A stretch of 64,000 bases of DNA, taken from Acidimicrobiales bacterium. GTDB lineage: Bacteria > Actinomycetota > Acidimicrobiia > Acidimicrobiales > Iamiaceae. The position numbers were made by a program, and so were the translations under genes. The DNA lies in assembly GCA_035547835.1 (NCBI GenBank), contig DASZTW010000006.1, positions 67,001 through 131,000 on the forward strand, read 5' to 3'. The notes under the pieces were generated by a model. It had not been told where the DNA came from, ran no database searches, and was given only the letters and a program-made list of their open reading frames with translations. Shown here piece after piece: positions 42,310 to 51,403 of this stretch (positions within the stretch are counted from its first letter, which is position 1; each line of letters opens with the position of its first letter).

Positions 42310-42894
42310 CTACTCGACGTGGTCGAGCATCAGATGGCAGGCGGTCTCGACATCGTCGGCCGCCGCGGCGATGTCGCCGCTCCCGTTGATCCAGATGATC
42401 AACGCCGAGTACCAGACGTGGGTGAGCACCATGATCACCTGGTCGGCAAATGCCTGGTCGAGATCGTCGGACATCGCCCGCGACAGCACTCGACCCATCG
42501 ATTCGCCGACCTGGCGCTGGGGCACGGCGGTGGCCGGATCAGCCGACACGAGCGCGGTCACCACCGCTTCGGCCAGTCGGGGTTGGCGCTGCATCGCCCG
42601 GTGCGCTCGACGCAAGATGTCGGCGACCCGCTCCGCGGTCGTGGCCCCGGTCGGCGGCCGGCGCGAGATCTGCTGTTCGAGCACGTCGACCCACGACACC
42701 AGCGCGGCCGCGAGCAGATGGTCCTTCGAGGAGAAGTACCGGTAGATGGTGCCGAGCGCCACGCCCGCCTCGCGGCCAACGTCGCGCATCTGCACCGCGT
42801 CGTAGCCACCGTCGGCCGCCAGCGCGAGCGCGGCTTCGACGACCCGCTGGCGGCGGGCAGCCTGGCCCTGGGGCAGGTCCTCCGCGTCGAACAT
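42310..42894 (-). CDS. kstR: KstR-type TetR repressor of sterol/lipid catabolism
   Basis: A 194-residue TetR protein closely resembling mycobacterial KstR. The DNA-binding stretch GGYDAVQMRDVGREAGVALGTIYRYFSSKDHLLAAAL (residues 28-64) is nearly the KstR sequence from memory, and RAHRAMQRQPRLAEAVVTALVSADP matches its ligand domain. KstR represses cholesterol uptake and catabolism genes until a 3-oxo-sterol-CoA binds. It lies 10 bases after an acyl-CoA dehydrogenase that has a KstR-like box in front, implying autoregulation. Five such boxes occur in the window. Orthology rests on recalled sequences, not a search. Confidence 0.85.
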   Translation of the reverse strand: MFDAEDLPQGQAARRQRVVEAALALAADGGYDAVQMRDVGREAGVALGTIYRYFSSKDHLLAAALVSWVDVLEQQISRRPPTGATTAERVADILRRAHRAMQRQPRLAEAVVTALVSADPATAVPQRQVGESMGRVLSRAMSDDLDQAFADQVIMVLTHVWYSALIIWINGSGDIAAAADDVETACHLMLDHVE

Positions 42895-42904
42895 CGGGGC
42901 GAGG

Positions 42905-44131
42905 CTAACGACCCGCGCGGACGAGGTCGCGGAACGGGACGTCGCGGTCGGCGCGCACTTCGCCAGGTAGCCCCAGGCTCCGTTCGGCCACCGCGTTGCG
43001 CTGCATCTCGTCGGTGCCCCCGCCGATCGACAGCGACAGCGACATCAGCATCCGGCCTTGCCAGAACGTGTCGGCGTCCGGCCCTCGCCACAGCATCCCG
43101 CCCGGCCCCGCCAAGTCGGTGCCGATCTGGGCCATGGACTTCACGTGCTGCGTGTACACGAGCTTCATGATCGAGGCTTCCGGCCCGGGCGCTCGGCCCT
43201 GGCTCACCGCGGTCTGCATGCGGTAGCGGAGGAAGCGGAGGATGTGGTGGCGCACGAACGCCGCGGCCAGACGCTGGCGCATCACGGGCTCGCCGGTGCG
43301 GCCGAGCGCTCGCGCCCGGTCGACGAGCTGGAGGAACTCGTCGCCCTTGCTCGACCCGCCGATGGCGGCGCGCTCGTTCGACAAGGTGGTCACGGCGACG
43401 CGCCAGCCACCGTCGACGTCGCCCACGACGTTGGCTGCCGGGATGCGCACCTGGTCGAGGAAGACCTCGTTGAAGTGCGACAGCGTGTTCATCTGGACGA
43501 GCGGTCGCACCGTGATGCCGGGGCTGCGCATGTCGACCACGAAGAACGTGATGCCCTGGTGCTTGGGTTGGTCGGGATCCGTGCGGGCGAGGAGGATGCC
43601 CCAGTCGCTCTCGGCCGCGCTCGACGTCCACACCTTCTGGCCGGTCACCACGAACTCGTCACCGTCGCGCACGGCACGAGTGGTGATGCCGGCGAGGTCG
43701 GACCCCGCGGCCGGCTCACTGAACAACTGGCACCACAGCTCGTCGCCGCGCAGCATGGCCGGCAAGAACCGCCGTTGTTGCTCCGGGGTGCCGTGACGCA
43801 TGAGCGTCGGTGCCACCATGCCGTGGGCCACGGCGAACACACCCACCGACACGCCGAACCCGGTCATCTCCTGGTTGAACACGGCCTGCTCGATGGCCGG
43901 ACGACCCTGCCCGCCGAAGGCCACCGGCCACGCCAGACCCGCCCAACCGCCCTCGTGCAACGCGCGCTGCCAACGCTTGCAGTTCTCGGCGTGCTCGGCT
44001 TCGGTGAACTGGCCGTTCAGGTAGCCGTCGGAAAAGTCATCCGCGCTCCCCCTGGCCGGGGCGTTCGCTTCGAGCCAGGCCCGAGCCCGCGCCCGGAACT
44101 CGGCCTCCTCCGGCGTGTCCCCGAAATCCAT
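42905..44131 (-). CDS. Acyl-CoA dehydrogenase (KstR-regulated)
   Basis: A 408-residue acyl-CoA dehydrogenase. Landmarks are WCQLFSEPAAGSDLAGITT (FAD/substrate loop, about residues 129-147), VTGQKVWTSSAAESDWGILLARTD, and the C-terminal SLSIGGGTDEMQRNAVAERSLGLP. It starts MDFGDTPEEAEFRARARAWLEANAP, as sterol-side-chain dehydrogenases of the FadE group often do. In mycobacteria these work as heterotetramers of two different subunits, and no second subunit is adjacent. It is the promoter-proximal gene of the operon with kstR, with a KstR-like palindrome 12 bases before its ATG. Confidence 0.92.
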   Translation of the reverse strand: MDFGDTPEEAEFRARARAWLEANAPARGSADDFSDGYLNGQFTEAEHAENCKRWQRALHEGGWAGLAWPVAFGGQGRPAIEQAVFNQEMTGFGVSVGVFAVAHGMVAPTLMRHGTPEQQRRFLPAMLRGDELWCQLFSEPAAGSDLAGITTRAVRDGDEFVVTGQKVWTSSAAESDWGILLARTDPDQPKHQGITFFVVDMRSPGITVRPLVQMNTLSHFNEVFLDQVRIPAANVVGDVDGGWRVAVTTLSNERAAIGGSSKGDEFLQLVDRARALGRTGEPVMRQRLAAAFVRHHILRFLRYRMQTAVSQGRAPGPEASIMKLVYTQHVKSMAQIGTDLAGPGGMLWRGPDADTFWQGRMLMSLSLSIGGGTDEMQRNAVAERSLGLPGEVRADRDVPFRDLVRAGR

Positions 44132-44172: not shown

Positions 44173-44219
44173 TGCTGTGAGCACTTGGCCACCCACCAGG
44201 TGGCTAACTGCTCACAGCA
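44173..44219. repeat. Hairpin element (CTGTGAGCA family) containing a stop codon
   Basis: TGCTGTGAGCACTTGGCCACC and its partner GGTGGCTAACTGCTCACAGCA pair at all but two of 21 positions, with a 5-base loop. The right arm supplies the last codons (A-V-S-S) and the TAG of the alpha/beta hydrolase gene. Confidence 0.8.
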
Positions 44220-45457
44220 CGGGATTTCGGGGGGGACTTGGCGGCGGGGTCGGCCTCGAGGCGGCTTGTATGGACCCAATGGAGGAAGCGCTCGATCGCC
44301 TCGACCACCGGCAGGGACCGCAGCGACGGGAACATGTCGAAGGCGTGCTGCGCGCCGTGCAGCTCGGCATAGAGCACCGGTTGGCGGGACGCGGCGCGGA
44401 CCGCGTCGACGAACGTGCGGGCGTCGGCCACGGGCGCCAAGGTGTCGCGGTCGCCGTGCACCACGAGCATCGGTGGTGCGTCGGCGTTGGCCTGGTCGAT
44501 GGGTGAGGCGTCGCGGAACAAGTCGGGCTGCTCGTCGTGGAACGCCTTCATCACCCACGGCTCGAGGAACGTCGGCACCCAGTCGTCGTGCATCGACCGG
44601 TTGCGGTTGGTGAAGTCGTACACGCCGTAGATCGGGACCGCGCCCTGGACGCTGGTGTCGGCGTCCTCGAACCCGGGTTGGTACCGGGGGTCGTTCTGGG
44701 TGAGCGCCACCAGCGAGCTGAGGTGGCCGCCGGCGGAGTTCCCGGTCACGCACACGAAGTCGGGGTCGATCCCCCACTCCTCTGCGTGCTCGCGGGTCCA
44801 CGCCAGCGCCCGTTTGCAGTCGACGAGGAAATCGGGCCAACCGGCCGCCGGGGCGAGGCGGTAGTCGGTGTCGACCCACACCCACCCGTTGGCGACGAGG
44901 TGGTTCCGCAGCGGGATGCTCTGCATCTGGCGGAACCCGAGGACCCAGGCGCCCCCGTGGATCTGCAGGATCGTCGGGCGACGATCACCCGGCTTCATGT
45001 CGACCGGGTGGAAGACGTCGAGCGTGAGGCGCCGCCCGCCGGCCCGAGCGAACACGATGTTGCGCTTCGACGCCACGCCCTTGGCCCGATGGACGAACGG
45101 CATGAGGAGGGCACCCCGCGACAAGCGCGACCCGGCCTCGGCGCCGATCGTGTCGACCAGCGCGGCCCGCATGGTCGACGCGCTCCGCTGGGCCTGCGCC
45201 ACCATGGCGAGCAGGCCCACCCACGACAGCGCGCACAGCACCAGCCCGACCCACCCCGGCGCCGAGCCCAGCGCGCCGAACACGCACAACACTGCAGCGA
45301 TCGCCGCTTGGCCCAGCAACAGTTGGGGCGCGAGCTCGATCGTGAGCCACGAGGCGAAGAAGCTCGGCGCGACCAGCCACCGGTTGCGGCTGGGGTACCG
45401 GGCGTTCACCGTGAAGAGCGCGCTCACGCTGCCGAGCGCCAGCAGAACCCATCCCAT
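44204..45457 (-). CDS. Membrane-anchored alpha/beta hydrolase (HSL/BD-FAE-like esterase)
   Basis: A 417-residue esterase or lipase. Residues 1-95 hold three or four membrane segments (GWVLLALGSVSALFTV, APSFFASWLTIELAPQLLLGQAAIAAVLCVFGALG, GWVGLVLCALSWVGLLAMVAQ). The hydrolase domain follows with the oxyanion motif QIHGGAWVLGF (about residue 171), the nucleophile elbow CVTGNSAGGHLSSL (about residue 240), an Asp in VVHGDRDTLAP and a His in GAQHAFDMF. ATG 45457 is chosen; the longer frame would cross the promoter region. It diverges from the WS/DGAT gene by 118 bp, suggesting storage-lipid turnover. Its stop lies inside an inverted-repeat element. Confidence 0.88.
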   Translation of the reverse strand: MGWVLLALGSVSALFTVNARYPSRNRWLVAPSFFASWLTIELAPQLLLGQAAIAAVLCVFGALGSAPGWVGLVLCALSWVGLLAMVAQAQRSASTMRAALVDTIGAEAGSRLSRGALLMPFVHRAKGVASKRNIVFARAGGRRLTLDVFHPVDMKPGDRRPTILQIHGGAWVLGFRQMQSIPLRNHLVANGWVWVDTDYRLAPAAGWPDFLVDCKRALAWTREHAEEWGIDPDFVCVTGNSAGGHLSSLVALTQNDPRYQPGFEDADTSVQGAVPIYGVYDFTNRNRSMHDDWVPTFLEPWVMKAFHDEQPDLFRDASPIDQANADAPPMLVVHGDRDTLAPVADARTFVDAVRAASRQPVLYAELHGAQHAFDMFPSLRSLPVVEAIERFLHWVHTSRLEADPAAKSPPKSRAVSS

Positions 45458-45575
45458 GCGGGGAGTCTTGCCGCACACGCTCCCACCGGCCAGATCGTGG
45501 AGGATCGAAGGTGCGGCACGGCGAACCGGGTGGAAAACTCGCGTCCCTCGACCATTCCCCGACAGGGAGGGCCCC

Positions 45576-47231
45576 ATGAAGCGGCTTTCTGGCCTCGACG
45601 CCTCGTTTCTGTACTTGGAAACGCCCTCCCATCACATGCACGTGTGCATGACGATGGTGCTCGACCCGTCGACCATGCCCGGCGGGTACTCCTTCGAGCG
45701 GCTCCGCGACTTCATCGAGTCCAAGCAAGACCTCCCGCTGTTCCGTCGCCGCATCGCCGAGGTGCCGTTCCGCCTCGCGCACCCGGTGTGGGTCGACGAC
45801 CCGACTTTCGACCTCGACTACCACTTGCGACGCATCGGCGCGCCCTCGCCCGGCGGTCGCCGCGAGCTCGGCGCGCTGGCGGCTCAGATCGCCGGCACCC
45901 CGCTCGACCGCAGCCGGCCGCTGTGGGAGATGTGGGTGATCGAGAACCTCAGGCACGGCCGGATCGGCGTGGTCACCAAGGTGCATCACGCCGCGGTCGA
46001 CGGCGTGTCGGGCGCCGACATCATGATGAACCTGTTCGACCTGACCCCCGACGGCGGGGGTCGGGGTGCGGCGGCCGACCTCGCGGCGCTCACTGGCGAG
46101 CCGGTGCCCGAGCAGCAGTTCGACCCGCGCGACGACCACATCCCCACCGACCTCGAGCTGGTGCAGCACGCGGTCCGCTCCCGCGTTCGCAAGGCCACCG
46201 GCCTGCTGCCCCTGCTGCGCACCACCGTCGAGTCGGTGAACAACGTGATCCAGGGCCGCCGCGACCCGACCAAGGGCGTGGGGGCCGTGCCGCTGACCGC
46301 GCCGCGCTGCCCGTGGAACGAGTCGGTCACCGCGCACCGCTCGGTGGGTCTCGCGCGCGTCTCGCTCGACGACATCAAGGAAGTGAAGACCGCGTTCGAC
46401 GTGAAGGTGAACGACGTTGTGCTCGCGCTGTGCGCCGGCATGTTGCGCCGCTACCTCGACCACCATGGCGGCGTCCCCGATACACCGCTGCTCGTCACGT
46501 GCCCGATCTCGGTCCACGACGGCACCGAGCGCGAGTCGATCAACCAGGTGTCGGCGATGTTCGTGTCGCTCGCCACCGACATCGCCGATCCCGGCGAGCG
46601 CCTGCTGGCGATCGCCGAGTCCACCAAGGGAGCCAAAGAGGAGCACAAGGCGATCGGAGCGGAGACCTTGATGGGCTGGGCCGAGTACGCGCCGCCCAAC
46701 GTCTTCAACCTGGCGGCCCGCCTCTACTCGGGTTGGTCGCTCGCGGGCCGCCACCGGCCTGTGCACAACGCGGTCGTGTCCAACGTGCCCGGCCCGCCGT
46801 TCCCGATGTACTTCGCGGGGGCCGAGATGCTCGCCACGTACCCGCTGGGCCCCGTGATGGAGGGCTGTGGCCTCAACATCACGGTGTTCAGCTACCAGGA
46901 CAACGTCGACATCGGGCTCGTGGTGTGCCGCGAGCTGGTGCCCGACGTGTGGGACATGGCCGCTGGCGCCGGACCCGCCATGGCCGAGTTGCTCGCCGCC
47001 GCCCGGACCCGCAGCGGCGCGTCGAACGGCAAGGCCGCGACGGCGGCGGCCGGGCAGGCCGCGCCCGCCGCCACCGGATCGTCGGCCAAGCCCGCGCCCA
47101 CCAAGCGGGCGGGCACCAAGCGGGCGGGCACCAAGGCCACCACGGCCAGACGGGCGACGAAGGCGTCGACCGCCACGCCCGCCACACGCAAGCGGGCCGC
47201 GGCCACCCGCGCCGCCAAGCCCAAGTCGTAG
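45576..47231 (+). CDS. Wax ester synthase/diacylglycerol acyltransferase with histone-like tail
   Basis: A 551-residue WS/DGAT that makes triacylglycerol or wax ester from acyl-CoA. The catalytic motif HHAAVDG (about residues 135-141) and start MKRLSGLDASFLYLETPSHHMHV are typical, as are NDVVLALCAGMLRRYL and the VVSNVPGPPFPMYFAGA block. Residues 480-551 are unusual: an Ala/Lys/Arg/Thr-rich tail with KRAGTK repeats and ending RAAKPKS, like histone H1 or Lsr2/HupB tails. This could bind DNA or acidic surfaces. RBS CAGGGAGGG precedes the ATG at 45576. It diverges from a membrane esterase and precedes the FadD19-like gene by 90 bp. Confidence 0.9.
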   Translation: MKRLSGLDASFLYLETPSHHMHVCMTMVLDPSTMPGGYSFERLRDFIESKQDLPLFRRRIAEVPFRLAHPVWVDDPTFDLDYHLRRIGAPSPGGRRELGALAAQIAGTPLDRSRPLWEMWVIENLRHGRIGVVTKVHHAAVDGVSGADIMMNLFDLTPDGGGRGAAADLAALTGEPVPEQQFDPRDDHIPTDLELVQHAVRSRVRKATGLLPLLRTTVESVNNVIQGRRDPTKGVGAVPLTAPRCPWNESVTAHRSVGLARVSLDDIKEVKTAFDVKVNDVVLALCAGMLRRYLDHHGGVPDTPLLVTCPISVHDGTERESINQVSAMFVSLATDIADPGERLLAIAESTKGAKEEHKAIGAETLMGWAEYAPPNVFNLAARLYSGWSLAGRHRPVHNAVVSNVPGPPFPMYFAGAEMLATYPLGPVMEGCGLNITVFSYQDNVDIGLVVCRELVPDVWDMAAGAGPAMAELLAAARTRSGASNGKAATAAAGQAAPAATGSSAKPAPTKRAGTKRAGTKATTARRATKASTATPATRKRAAATRAAKPKS

Positions 47232-47308: not shown

Positions 47309-47322
47309 TAGAACGTGTTTCA
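47309..47322. promoter_or_regulatory. KstR-type operator abutting the FadD19-like start codon
   Basis: TAGAACGTGTTTCA fits TNNAACNNGTTNNA at all fixed positions. Its last base is the A of the ATG at 47322, so repressor binding would cover the start region. The message is therefore probably leaderless or begins inside the operator. Confidence 0.75.
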
Positions 47323-48938
47323 TGGCCTTCAACATCGCCGACCTGTTCGAGCACGCGGTCGACGTCGTCCCTGACCGGCTGGCGCTCGTGGCCGGGCCAC
47401 GGCGGCCGACGTACGCCGAGCTCGACGAGCGGGCCACCCGCTTCGCCCACCATCTCGCCGGCCAGGGCATCGGCGTCGGCGACCACGTCGGGATCTACGG
47501 CCTGAACTCCGAAGCGTGGGTGGTGGCGATGCTGGCCGCCTTCAAGATCCGTGCGGTGCCGATCAACGTCAACTTCCGCTACGTCGCCGACGAGTTGCGC
47601 TACCTGTTCGACAACGCCGACCTCGTCGGCCTGGTGTTCGACGCCACCTTCGCACCCCGCGTCGCCGAGGTGGCGCCCGAGCTGCCGGCCCTGCGCACGT
47701 TCGTGGTGATCGACGACGGGTCCGGCACCGACGCCTCGGCGCTCGGCGCGGTGCCGTTCGAGGACGCTGTGGCCGCGGGAAGCGCCGACCGCGACTTCGG
47801 CCCGCGCTCCCCCGACGACTTGTACGTGCTGTACACGGGCGGCACGACCGGCATGCCCAAAGGCGTGCTGTGGCGCCAAGAAGACGTGTACTACGCCCTC
47901 GGCGGCGGCGTCGACGCGTACACCGGCCACCACGTGACCGACGAGTTCGAGCCGGCAGAGAAGGCGAGGACCTCCGAGTCGCCGATGATCTCGTTCTGCA
48001 CGCCGCCGCTCATGCACGGGGCCGCGCAGTGGGGCACGCTGCGGATGTTCTTCGAAGGCAACACGGTGGTGTTCATCCCGAAGTTCTCGGCCGAGGCGGC
48101 CTGGCAACTCGTCGACGACGAGAAGGTCCAGACGATGTTCATCACCGGCGACGCCATGGCCCGCCCGCTCATCGAGGCACTCGACGCCGAACCTGACCGC
48201 TGGGACTTGTCGTCACTGTTCGTGCTGTCGAGCTCGGCCGTGAGCTTCTCGCCGGTGCTCAAGCAGCGGTTCCTCGACCGCTTCCCCGGGCTGATCCTCG
48301 TGGACGCGATCGGTTCGACCGAGACCGGCCACAACGGGCAGGCGATCATCCCCTCGGGCGCCGAGCGCAAAGAAGGCATCGGCGTGAGCGTCGAAGGGCT
48401 CGAAGGCAGCTTCGTGCTCGGCGAGGACCTCAGCCCGCTCCCGGCCGGGTCGCCCGAAGTCGGCAGGCTCGCCCGCGCCGGCAACATCCCGCTCGGCTAC
48501 CACAAGGACCCCGAGCGGACGGCCCGCACGTTCGTGACCGGCCCCGACGGCACCCGCTACGCCATGCCCGGCGACTGGGCCCGCCACGAAGCCGACGGCA
48601 CGATCACGTTGCTGGGCCGTGGCTCGGCATCGATCAACTCCGGCGGCGAGAAGATCTACCCCGAAGAAGTCGAAGGCGCGCTGAAGGACCACCCGGCGAT
48701 CGCCGACGCGATCGTGGTCGGCGTGACCGACGAGCGCTGGGGCCAAGCGGTGTGCGCGCTGCTCCAGCTGGTCGACGGGCAAGCCGCGCCCACGCTCGAC
48801 GCGGTGCAGGAGCACTGCCGGGCGCGCATCGCCCGCTACAAAGTGCCGCGCAAGCTCGTGATCGTCGACACGGTCGTCCGCTCGCCGAGCGGCAAACCCG
48901 ACTACCCCTGGGCCACCAAGATCGCGGAGGGTGTCTGA
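47322..48938 (+). CDS. Acyl-CoA synthetase, FadD19-like (steroid side-chain)
   Basis: A 538-residue ANL-family ligase that activates a carboxylic acid with ATP and CoA. The P-loop is YVLYTGGTTGMPKGVLWRQED (about residues 168-188). The adenylation core is SSTETGHN-like (DAIGSTETGHNGQ), and the C-terminal hinge/Lys motif is GRGSASINSGGEKIYPEEVEGALKDHP with the catalytic Lys in SPSGKPDYPWATK. The N-terminus FNIADLFEHAVDVVPDRLALV and several long stretches resemble mycobacterial FadD19, which activates C26/C24 sterol side chains. A KstR-type box precedes it. Its stop overlaps a 34-residue ORF that leads into egtB. Confidence 0.9.
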   Translation: MAFNIADLFEHAVDVVPDRLALVAGPRRPTYAELDERATRFAHHLAGQGIGVGDHVGIYGLNSEAWVVAMLAAFKIRAVPINVNFRYVADELRYLFDNADLVGLVFDATFAPRVAEVAPELPALRTFVVIDDGSGTDASALGAVPFEDAVAAGSADRDFGPRSPDDLYVLYTGGTTGMPKGVLWRQEDVYYALGGGVDAYTGHHVTDEFEPAEKARTSESPMISFCTPPLMHGAAQWGTLRMFFEGNTVVFIPKFSAEAAWQLVDDEKVQTMFITGDAMARPLIEALDAEPDRWDLSSLFVLSSSAVSFSPVLKQRFLDRFPGLILVDAIGSTETGHNGQAIIPSGAERKEGIGVSVEGLEGSFVLGEDLSPLPAGSPEVGRLARAGNIPLGYHKDPERTARTFVTGPDGTRYAMPGDWARHEADGTITLLGRGSASINSGGEKIYPEEVEGALKDHPAIADAIVVGVTDERWGQAVCALLQLVDGQAAPTLDAVQEHCRARIARYKVPRKLVIVDTVVRSPSGKPDYPWATKIAEGV

Positions 48939-49042
48939 TGCAGAACCGCATGGTCGACATGTTCGGGTTGGAATTGAGCTGTCTCGACCTGCCACCGATC
49001 CGCGACGACGAGTGGGTGCATGCCCAGTTCGGGCACGACTGA
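48938..49042 (+). CDS. 34-residue ORF between the FadD19-like gene and egtB
   Basis: A short frame reading MQNRMVDMFGLELSCLDLPP and ending WVHAQFGHD. TGATG overlaps join it to the ligase stop (48936-48940) and to the egtB start (49040-49044), so ribosomes could pass through all three. Third positions are mostly G/C. I recognise no family. It may be a real microprotein or only a coupling device. Confidence 0.5.
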   Translation: MQNRMVDMFGLELSCLDLPPIRDDEWVHAQFGHD

Positions 49043-50355
49043 TGGGCGCCGCCGGACCGTCTGACCTGCGCGCCCGGTACTGCGAGGTGCGCACCCTCAC
49101 CGAGACCCTCGCCACGCCCCTGTCGCCCGAGGACCAAGTGGTGCAGTCGATGCCCGACGTCAGTCCCACCAAGTGGCATCGGGCGCACACCACCTGGTTC
49201 TTCGAGACCTTCCTCCTCGCCCCCCACCTGCCGGCTTTCCAGCCGCACGACCCGGCCTTCGCGTACTTGTTCAACTCGTACTACGAGGCCGTCGGCCAGC
49301 GACACGCCCGCGACCGCCGCGGGGTGATCTCCCGCCCCGGCATCGCCGAAGTTGCCGCTTACCGGGCCGCCACCGACGAGCAGATGCTCGACTTGTTGGA
49401 CTCGCTCGACGACCACCCGGCCTCGACCCGCGACCGCATCGTGGAGCTGGTCACGCTCGGCCTCCACCATGAACAACAGCACCAAGAGCTGCTGCTCATG
49501 GACATCAAGCACGTGCTGTCGTGCAACCCCACGTTCCCTTCGTACCGCACCCGCCCTGGCCGTACGGGTGCCGCCACCTCCCCCGCCCGATCCGCTGCCG
49601 TACCGGCGTCGATCGGCTGGGTCGACTTCGACGGGGGCCTGGTCGAGATCGGCCACTGCGGCGACGGCTTCGCGTTCGACAACGAGGTGCCCCGCCATCG
49701 CGAGCATCTCGAACCGTTCCGGTTGGCGACCAACCCGGTCACGTGCGGCGACTGGTTGGCGTTCATCGACGACGGTGGCTACTCGCAGCCGGGCCTGTGG
49801 CTCTCCGAAGGCTGGGCGACCGTGCAACAGCAGGGATGGATCGCGCCCTTCTACTGGCAGGGCGGCGGCGACGGCGGTTGGCAGGTCTTCACGCTCGACG
49901 GTCTGCGGGCCGTCGACCCGGCCGAGCCGGTCGTGCACGTCAGCTACTTCGAGGCCGACGCGTTCGCCCACTGGGCCGGCGCCCGGCTCCCCACCGAAGC
50001 CGAGTGGGAGCACGCCGCCGCGTCGGACGCGCCACCACCGGTCTTCAACGACCTTTCCGCCGGCCACCTCCACCCCGTCGCTGGCACCGGGGCCGACGGT
50101 CCGCAACCACGCCTGCGCCAGCTGTATGGCGACGTGTGGGAATGGACGTCGAGCTCGTACGCGCCGTACCCCGGCTTCCGGGTCGCGCCCGGCGCGGTCG
50201 GTGAGTACAACGGCAAGTTCATGTGCAACCAGCAAGTGCTGCGGGGTGGTTGCGCGATCACACCGGCCGGCCACGTCCGGCCTACGTACCGCAACTTCTT
50301 CCCGCCCGCTGCCCGCTGGGCGTTCGCCGGGCTCCGCCTGGCCGCCGACGCCTGA
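49042..50355 (+). CDS. egtB: Ergothioneine biosynthesis sulfoxide synthase
   Basis: A 437-residue iron enzyme joining hercynine to a cysteine-containing thiol with oxygen. The DinB-like N-terminal domain carries the iron-binding motif HHEQQHQE (about residues 141-148; H-x3-H-x-E) after KWHRAHTTWFFETFLL. The C-terminal formylglycine-enzyme-like domain has GGYSQPGLWLSEGWA, SYFEADAFAHWAGARLPTEAEWE and GDVWEWTSSSYAPYPGF ending in CNQQVLRGGCAITPAGHVRPTYRNFFPP. egtD follows on the same strand. EgtA, EgtC and EgtE are not nearby. The start at 49042 overlaps the stop of the 34-residue ORF. Confidence 0.95.
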   Translation: MGAAGPSDLRARYCEVRTLTETLATPLSPEDQVVQSMPDVSPTKWHRAHTTWFFETFLLAPHLPAFQPHDPAFAYLFNSYYEAVGQRHARDRRGVISRPGIAEVAAYRAATDEQMLDLLDSLDDHPASTRDRIVELVTLGLHHEQQHQELLLMDIKHVLSCNPTFPSYRTRPGRTGAATSPARSAAVPASIGWVDFDGGLVEIGHCGDGFAFDNEVPRHREHLEPFRLATNPVTCGDWLAFIDDGGYSQPGLWLSEGWATVQQQGWIAPFYWQGGGDGGWQVFTLDGLRAVDPAEPVVHVSYFEADAFAHWAGARLPTEAEWEHAAASDAPPPVFNDLSAGHLHPVAGTGADGPQPRLRQLYGDVWEWTSSSYAPYPGFRVAPGAVGEYNGKFMCNQQVLRGGCAITPAGHVRPTYRNFFPPAARWAFAGLRLAADA

Positions 50356-50410
50356 CCCGCACCCACCCGCCGGTCGTCCCTGCGCGCCCGCCCTTCCCAA
50401 GGACCCTGCT

Positions 50411-51403
50411 GTGCCCGCATCCCACGCCATGTCCGCCTCCGCCACCGTGCCCATCGAGGTGCACCTCACTGACGACGACCTCCACGAGACGCTGCGCGAG
50501 GAGGTCGCCGCCGGCCTCACCGCCGACCCGAAGTGGCTGTCGCCGAAGTGGTTCTACGACGACCGCGGCAGCGAGCTCTTCGACGAGATCACCCGTCTCC
50601 CCGAGTACTACCCGACCGAGGCCGAACGCCGGATCCTCGCCCGCCACGCTGCCGAGATCGCCGCCGCGACCGGCGCAGAAGTGCTGGTCGAGCTGGGATC
50701 GGGCACGTCGGACAAGACCCGCCTGCTGCTCGACGCGCTCGTCGCCACCGGCGTCCACACGTTCGTGCCATTCGACGTCAGCGAGGGGATCCTGCGCTAC
50801 GCAGCGGCGGTCCTCGACGACCGCTACCCCGATCTCGGTGTGGTGGGGGTGGTCGGCGACTTCGAGCGGCATCTCGACGAGCTGCCCACCCCCGGGTGCC
50901 GCACCGTCGCGCTGCTCGGCTCCACGATCGGCAACCTCGACCCCGAACAGCGGGCCTGCTTCCTGGCGACGATGGCCGAGGTGCTCGAGCCCGGCGAAGC
51001 GCTGCTGCTCGGCACCGACTTGATCAAGGATCGCCCGCGCCTGCTCGCCGCGTACGACGATCCCGGCGGCGTCACTGCGGCGTTCAACCGCAACGTGCTG
51101 GCGGTCCTCAACCGCGAGCTCGGCGCCGACTTCGAGTTGGCGTCGTTCGACCACGAGGCCCGCTGGAACGAACCACAGCACCGCATCGAGATGTGGCTCC
51201 GCTCGTCCGAGGCCCAGACCGTGCAAGTTGCCGATCTCGGCCTGAGCGTCGACTTCGCGAGAGGCGAAGGTGTGCGCACCGAGCTGTCGACCAAGTTCGA
51301 CCGCGACCTCGTCACCGCCGACGTGTGCGCCGCAGGGTTCCGCGCCGCCGGGTGGTGGACCGATGACCCGGGCGACTTCGCCGTGTCGCTCTGGCGACGC
51401 TGA
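50411..51403 (+). CDS. egtD: L-histidine N(alpha)-methyltransferase (ergothioneine)
   Basis: A 330-residue SAM-dependent enzyme that trimethylates histidine to hercynine, the first ergothioneine step. The family pattern is clear: PKWLSPKWFYDDRGSELFDEITRLPEYYPTEAERRIL (about residues 37-73), the SAM motif VLVELGSGTSDKTRLLLDAL, VPFDVSEGILRYAA, and TVALLGSTIGNLDPEQR. The end ELSTKFDRDLVTADVCAAGFRAAGWWTDDPGDFAVSLWRR is standard. GTG 50411 follows AAGGA by seven bases; ATG 50429 would shorten it by six residues. It lies 55 bp after egtB, most likely in the same transcript as the FadD19-like gene. Confidence 0.95.
   Translation: MPASHAMSASATVPIEVHLTDDDLHETLREEVAAGLTADPKWLSPKWFYDDRGSELFDEITRLPEYYPTEAERRILARHAAEIAAATGAEVLVELGSGTSDKTRLLLDALVATGVHTFVPFDVSEGILRYAAAVLDDRYPDLGVVGVVGDFERHLDELPTPGCRTVALLGSTIGNLDPEQRACFLATMAEVLEPGEALLLGTDLIKDRPRLLAAYDDPGGVTAAFNRNVLAVLNRELGADFELASFDHEARWNEPQHRIEMWLRSSEAQTVQVADLGLSVDFARGEGVRTELSTKFDRDLVTADVCAAGFRAAGWWTDDPGDFAVSLWRR

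Follow-up and report, generated by a model that had tools for sequence, protein, structure and literature searches.

The window, that is, the whole 64,000-nucleotide stretch of DNA that was analysed, carries a wax ester synthase/DGAT (WS/DGAT) gene whose product ends in a strongly basic tail. The gene, its parts and its neighbours are listed below. For each neighbour we give the number of orthologous regions, out of the 13 fetched around orthologues of the WS/DGAT, in which a match was found.

42310..42894, minus strand: TetR-family regulator (match in 11 of 13 regions)
42905..44131, minus strand: acyl-CoA dehydrogenase family protein (10 of 13)
44204..45457, minus strand: divergent alpha/beta hydrolase, LipQ-like but below the model cut-off (5 of 13)
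45565..45571, plus strand: GGGAGGG, a purine-rich, ribosome-binding-like site upstream of the ATG, judged by eye
45576..47231, plus strand: WS/DGAT gene, 551 aa plus stop (PF03007, PF06974, TIGR02946)
45576..47003, plus strand: catalytic core, residues 1-476 (TIGR02946 at 4-476), modelled mostly with good confidence
45984..46004, plus strand: HHAAVDG, residues 137-143, which fits the HHxxxDG motif
47004..47228, plus strand: basic C-terminal tail, predicted to be disordered, residues 477-551 (K+R 18, D+E 0)
47099..47135, plus strand: perfect 15-bp direct repeat, 2.5 copies, encoding TKRAGTKRAGTK (Tandem Repeats Finder)
47322..48938, plus strand: acyl-CoA synthetase, FadD-like (NF005863), directly downstream (10 of 13)

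The start of the LipQ-like hydrolase has been set at Met 41 of the longest open reading frame (ORF), near the onset of homology in four of its five matches. LipQ (Rv2485c) is named, in a passage of PMC10699116, among the genes possibly involved in triacylglycerol (TAG) synthesis. Ergothioneine genes lie beside the lipid cluster (48931-51403, plus strand): an EgtB-type gene (TIGR03440) is followed by one for a histidine-specific methyltransferase (PF10017). Both were matched near the orthologous WS/DGAT in four of the 13 regions (L213, L215, L216 and L218).

The WS/DGAT core and its reading frame

By sequence, the protein encoded at 45576-47231 is a WS/DGAT. PF03007 covers residues 4-282 (249.7 bits) and PF06974 residues 323-472 (115.7 bits) in the Pfam search, and TIGR02946 covers residues 4-476 with 498.8 bits against a cut-off of 309.95. 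The start adopted for the gene is consistent with relatives whose match begins at residue 1. The string HHAAVDG at residues 137-143 we take to be the HHxxxDG active-site motif of WS/DGATs; H137, H138, D142 and G143 are invariant across 26 aligned sequences. The AlphaFold model has a mean pLDDT of 81.4 and a pTM of 0.80, and the solved structures most like it are the WS/DGATs 6chj (Marinobacter) and 7nxg (AbWSD1, Acinetobacter). These two enzymes and mycobacterial Tgs1 share the core fold, the family models and an HHxxxDG-type motif with the protein described here. They differ from it in length: the solved chains have 455 and 463 residues and Tgs1 has 463, whereas the present protein adds a basic stretch of 75 residues.

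The enzyme is probably an active triacylglycerol or wax ester synthase. It is the single WS/DGAT detected in its genome (completeness 97%), in which no match to PhaC was found either; as the sole WS/DGAT, with no PhaC detected, it would be the one to initiate droplets. The genome sample described below has another HHxxxDG string (L116), which was set aside, as it belongs to an ORF without a PF03007 match.

A tail of this kind might be false, the product of a frameshift, a misassembly or a wrong stop codon, and the preliminary description had named a frameshift artefact as one way in which its reading could fail. No such artefact was seen. When the translation is read, the ORF at 45576-47231 has no internal stop. 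The core has a third-position GC of 0.935 and the tail one of 0.96, and AAG is used for each of the nine Lys of the tail, which indicates that the reading frame simply continues, with no sign of a frameshift. Since other genomes carry similar tails, a false tail is largely refuted, and we find it scarcely credible.

Composition and rarity of the tail

The preliminary description, made from the sequence, was of an ordinary WS/DGAT core followed by about 70 residues rich in Ala, Lys, Arg and Thr, and this holds. The core occupies residues 1-476 and the tail residues 477-551, a stretch of 75 amino acids composed of 25 A, 13 T, 9 K, 9 R, 6 S, 6 G, 5 P, 1 N and 1 Q. It includes no D or E and none of FWYILMVC. 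At pH 7 the core carries a charge of about -11 and the tail one of +18, and the isoelectric point rises from 5.8 for the core to 8.9 for the whole protein. The tail is predicted to be disordered, with pLDDT below 50 at residues 489-505, 507-546 and 548-551 of the AlphaFold model. Searched alone, it matches nothing in Pfam at 0.1 or in the PDB at E 1. With the sampled-proteome composition, simple binomials give a chance of 1.8e-5 for at least 9 Lys in 75 residues, of 1.8e-4 for at least 18 Lys plus Arg and of 5e-5 for no Asp or Glu, figures that treat a low-complexity tail as if it were drawn at random, which it is not. An amphipathic helix that would serve as an anchor where the core ends was also considered and is unsupported, as the hydrophobic moment of residues 465-482 is very low (0.07).

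Two details of the preliminary description need to be narrowed. It spoke of KRAGTK repeats, and a perfect 15-base unit is indeed present at 47099-47135, although this is one unit in 2.5 copies only. It also likened the tail to those of histone H1 and HupB. The basic character and the predicted disorder agree with this, but the Arg count equals the Lys count and there is no motif of the AKKA/PAKKA type: the own tail has no match of [PATS]KK[APTS] and, as read from the translation, no KPAA. Among 24 orthologue-level loci, the tails of eight contain [PATS]KK[APTS] at least once. The HU protein of the same genome ends without a long Lys tail.

How unusual the tail is was assessed in a sample of the genome made up of the window and 19 further stretches (411,598 of 3,699,771 bases). 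A home-made gene finder yielded 240 proteins of at least 200 aa from this sample; it put the WS/DGAT start too far upstream and seems to have chosen the wrong frame in some other cases, C-termini being unaffected by the misplaced start. When these 240 proteins are ranked by the net charge of their last 75 residues, the WS/DGAT comes first at +18, followed by proteins at +14, +14 and +13. We defined a basic tail as the last 20-120 residues with FWYILMVC at no more than 12% and a net charge of at least +5 and of at least 0.15 per residue. This rule is passed by 6 of the 240 own proteins and by the same number among 240 from three related genomes, of which 20 stretches were sampled; apart from the WS/DGAT, no sampled protein that passes has more than two Lys. 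Widening the rule to 199 residues back gave the same control counts as 120.

The base rate is drawn from the proteins of the own genome and the three related genomes. Measured against it, basic tails are over-represented on WS/DGATs: they end 27 of 83 own-family WS/DGATs (among the matches listed) and 11 of 479 other sampled proteins of at least 200 aa (Fisher P 2e-16). If at least three Lys are demanded, the counts are 24/83 and 0/479 (Fisher P 5e-22), but both P values overstate independence, the WS/DGATs being relatives of one another. The 83 are the own-family loci with a closed 3' end out of 86 (L140, L292 and L300 were dropped), with the matches of genome G006 left out.

Adding proteins of 60-199 aa brings in a single further case, so that 1 of 667 others has a basic tail with at least three Lys. 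It is a 182-aa protein of a related genome (L198:16038-16586) with an AKK-repeat end, PAKPAKKTAAAKKAAAKKA, and a Pfam scan of it, for which the strand supplied is unconfirmed, was without a match. We also considered whether every genome retains a WS/DGAT with a basic tail. Among the matches listed, 19 of 23 genomes do so against 16.5 expected (permutation P 0.083), which is not significant, and the idea was not accepted.

Tails of related WS/DGATs

A WS/DGAT match was found in 53 of the 61 own-family genomes searched (own included). Loci L001-L024, the window gene among them, are treated as orthologue-level, and the family set was enlarged by 27 further loci. Gene order is largely kept in the 13 fetched regions, where the downstream acyl-CoA synthetases matched are 54-63% identical, and this backs orthology: most of the locus is conserved, unlike the tail. 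When the 24 orthologue-level loci are compared in pairs, the cores have a mean identity of 0.67 and the tails one of 0.20. Eleven of these tails are basic, eight short (<20 aa), three other and two acidic; 13/24 are basic by a sliding rule. Basic tails were also found at 2/6 of loci L025-L030 (3/6 by the sliding rule), on 14/40 same-family paralogues (14/40) and at 4/20 loci of other families (5/20).

A 103-row tree, for which only the cores were used, requires at least 20 changes between basic and not basic; the basic tail has been gained or lost repeatedly. The row nearest to the window gene by tree path, L005, which also has the highest alignment identity (65%), has a tail charge of -10. 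Three neighbouring orthologues (L012, L013 and L016) have acidic, neutral and basic tails and a common terminal peptide, KPAP[LM]RADL, which suggests that the end has been conserved on a tail of changed charge.

Named genomes provided 77 loci, mostly from Mycobacterium and Mycolicibacterium; one of them (L096) stops short of the core's end. One tail is basic, 71 are short (L096 included), three are acidic and two other. Tails are <20 aa in all the mycobacterial relatives examined. The five acidic or other tails all come from Acidimicrobiales or Acidimicrobiaceae MAGs, and such MAGs are included in the closest named matches (49-52%), which makes an actinobacterium of that class the likely source of the window. 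WS/DGATs from three Acidimicrobiaceae MAGs (L042, L046 and L105) have a common net acidic extension of 40-45 residues with the block PFDVP[LI]HLGPGMPP.

The sole basic-tailed locus from a named genome (L100) belongs to Parasphingorhabdus marina, one of the Alphaproteobacteria. A search with it gave a WS/DGAT match in 37 of 60 genomes (that of P. marina included), and the relatives of its genome are taken to be alphaproteobacteria. Fifty loci of Parasphingorhabdus and its kin were examined, 30 from the search and 20 picked by hand from the list (L224 is the L100 gene itself), and 47 of the 50 WS/DGATs are basic-tailed. The remaining three (L261, L267 and L269) fall outside the rule but still have 16, 15 and 6 K/R against 2, 3 and 2 D/E. 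Among 28 orthologues of one group of these kin, identity is 0.81 in the core and 0.61 in the tail, where each column of KKPKKR is conserved at 96-100% and each of ATAG at 100%. A second paralogue group (L254-L267) has a recurring tail block, for example DGSVMYRRVSKTPR, that includes an aromatic residue, unlike H1-like tails.

Basic tails on WS/DGATs thus recur in two distant bacterial groups. A search for the tail in other WS/DGATs had been proposed at the outset, and it proved productive both in the own family and in Parasphingorhabdus and its kin. Absence of the tail from relatives had been named, together with a failure to bind DNA, as counting against the reading; a basic tail is missing at 75 of the 76 readable named-genome loci, mostly mycobacterial.

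A candidate electrostatic tether and its alternatives

Basic C-termini have been described on several granule and droplet proteins. In excerpts of PMC5504291 MLDS binds DNA through its Lys-rich C-terminus, and a Lys-to-Glu change abolishes the binding; the preliminary description had likewise cited DNA binding by a Rhodococcus droplet protein. A passage of PMC10665949 calls the HBHA C-terminus necessary and sufficient for DNA binding. MLDS (TadA, in Rhodococcus) and HBHA (in mycobacteria) are lipid-inclusion proteins with a basic C-terminus like the present one, but theirs is Lys-rich, with PAKKA/AKKA motifs, and they are not acyltransferases, whereas the tail described here lacks the motif and sits on the acyltransferase itself. 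The N-terminal hydrophobic and coiled-coil region of HBHA is absent, the N-terminal part being the WS/DGAT catalytic domain.

Granules of other storage polymers provide further comparisons. PhaM and PhaF attach PHB granules to DNA and place them along the nucleoid (as summarized in part of the review PMC13052382), and the C-terminus of AlgP, an H1-like protein associated with polyphosphate granules, is required for the even spacing of these granules (parts of PMC9239181). The histone-like basic C-termini of PhaF, PhaM and AlgP belong to other protein families than WS/DGAT. The AlgP repeat region consists of 154 aa of KPAA-type repeats, and PhaM and the synthase PhaC on which it acts are separate proteins, whereas a single chain here comprises both tail and synthase. 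Tailed HU of the HupB type shares a basic C-terminal extension on a folded domain (a passage of PMC10665949), although the folded domain differs. Compared with MLDS, HBHA, PhaF and AlgP as a class, the present tail has the strongly basic and, by prediction, disordered C-terminus, with Arg equal to Lys, but not the AKKA, PAKKA or KPAA motifs. By analogy it may act as H1-like granule tethers do. An apolipoprotein-like search of the own genome gave one match, below the cut-off and in a 1191-aa frame.

We propose that an ordinary WS/DGAT core has gained an intrinsically disordered, polycationic C-terminal tail. The core would synthesize neutral lipid, either at the membrane or on a droplet as it grows, locations that the enzyme family suggests. 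The +18 tail, with nothing to bury in its 75 residues, would extend into the cytosol and hold the enzyme and the nascent droplet on a polyanionic surface through many weak, sequence-independent contacts. The likeliest surface would be the nucleoid, to judge by MLDS in the case of Rhodococcus droplets and by PhaF/PhaM in that of PHB granules. Since charge and flexibility would matter and not sequence, such a tail could change length by in-frame repeat duplication and diverge fast. We give an electrostatic tether on the droplet-building enzyme, with the nucleoid as its likeliest surface, close to an even chance; that DNA is the partner is a guess, for which we would put the chance a little lower. 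The earlier suggestion of a tie between droplets and DNA or another acidic surface gains from a tail that is real, predicted to be disordered, over-represented on WS/DGATs of the own family and common on those of Parasphingorhabdus and its kin. It loses from the orthologues at the same locus whose tails are short or acidic, and these argue against a conserved DNA tether.

A basic tail does not have to be a DNA-binding one: that of HBHA, which is Lys-rich, also binds phosphoinositides. The tail could bind anionic phospholipid of the inner membrane or of the droplet monolayer and keep the enzyme at a lipid surface, with no role in DNA binding. According to parts of PMC6176652, the Lys-rich C-terminus of HBHA is needed for lipid inclusions and for the binding of PI and PIP2, and a section of PMC10699116 places Dgat/Tgs enzymes mainly at the plasma membrane, with Tgs1 also on mature inclusions. 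However, the tail offers none of the residues FWYILMVC for insertion, and the stretch before it (465-482) has the low hydrophobic moment already given. In the case of HBHA, moreover, positive charge alone is said to be insufficient for PIP2, methylation being needed (same parts of PMC6176652). We hold acidic phospholipid to be an unlikely partner, though one that deserves serious attention. Polyphosphate, ribosomes or RNA, or the acidic core of the enzyme itself, is a distinctly unlikely choice; the tail would then tune activity, or placement at times of stress, and not tether droplets to the chromosome. The genome does encode a polyphosphate kinase, AlgP sets a precedent on polyphosphate granules and the opposite charges of core and tail would suit an internal contact, but 7 of 14 control genomes also have the kinase, so that its presence is nothing specific.

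The tail might also have no binding function at all, as a loosely constrained, disordered extension produced by slippage in GC-rich repeats and simply tolerated, its charge serving no specific purpose. The perfect 15-bp repeats within it, the 20 or more changes of state on the tree, the short or acidic tails of some orthologues and the low identity of tails compared with cores would all be expected of such an extension. Slippage alone, however, leaves the Lys bias unexplained, Lys-containing basic tails are rare on the other proteins sampled, and one group of Parasphingorhabdus kin has kept a conserved tail block. We consider this quite unlikely, although less so than polyphosphate or RNA as the partner; both, like acidic phospholipid, are nonetheless rivals to be taken seriously.

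Should the electrostatic tether be real, tether and synthase would be joined in one chain, a role that is filled elsewhere by separate proteins (MLDS, or PhaM with PhaC). A literature search, covering titles and abstract openings with few subscription journals among them, found no description of a WS/DGAT with a basic, Lys-rich or extended C-terminus or with a droplet tether among the papers listed. To our knowledge, the placement of bacterial droplets and their share-out at division are known mainly from MLDS in Rhodococcus. A wider proposal, which we think somewhat unlikely, is that H1-like tails were acquired separately by the neutral-lipid synthases of two or more phyla and that the enzyme that starts droplets thereby seeds them on the chromosome. 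A synthase with a built-in electrostatic tether would offer a one-protein, easily truncated test of the coupling between droplet birth and the nucleoid, and the basic, short and acidic tails of its orthologues would be a ready natural series for such an experiment.
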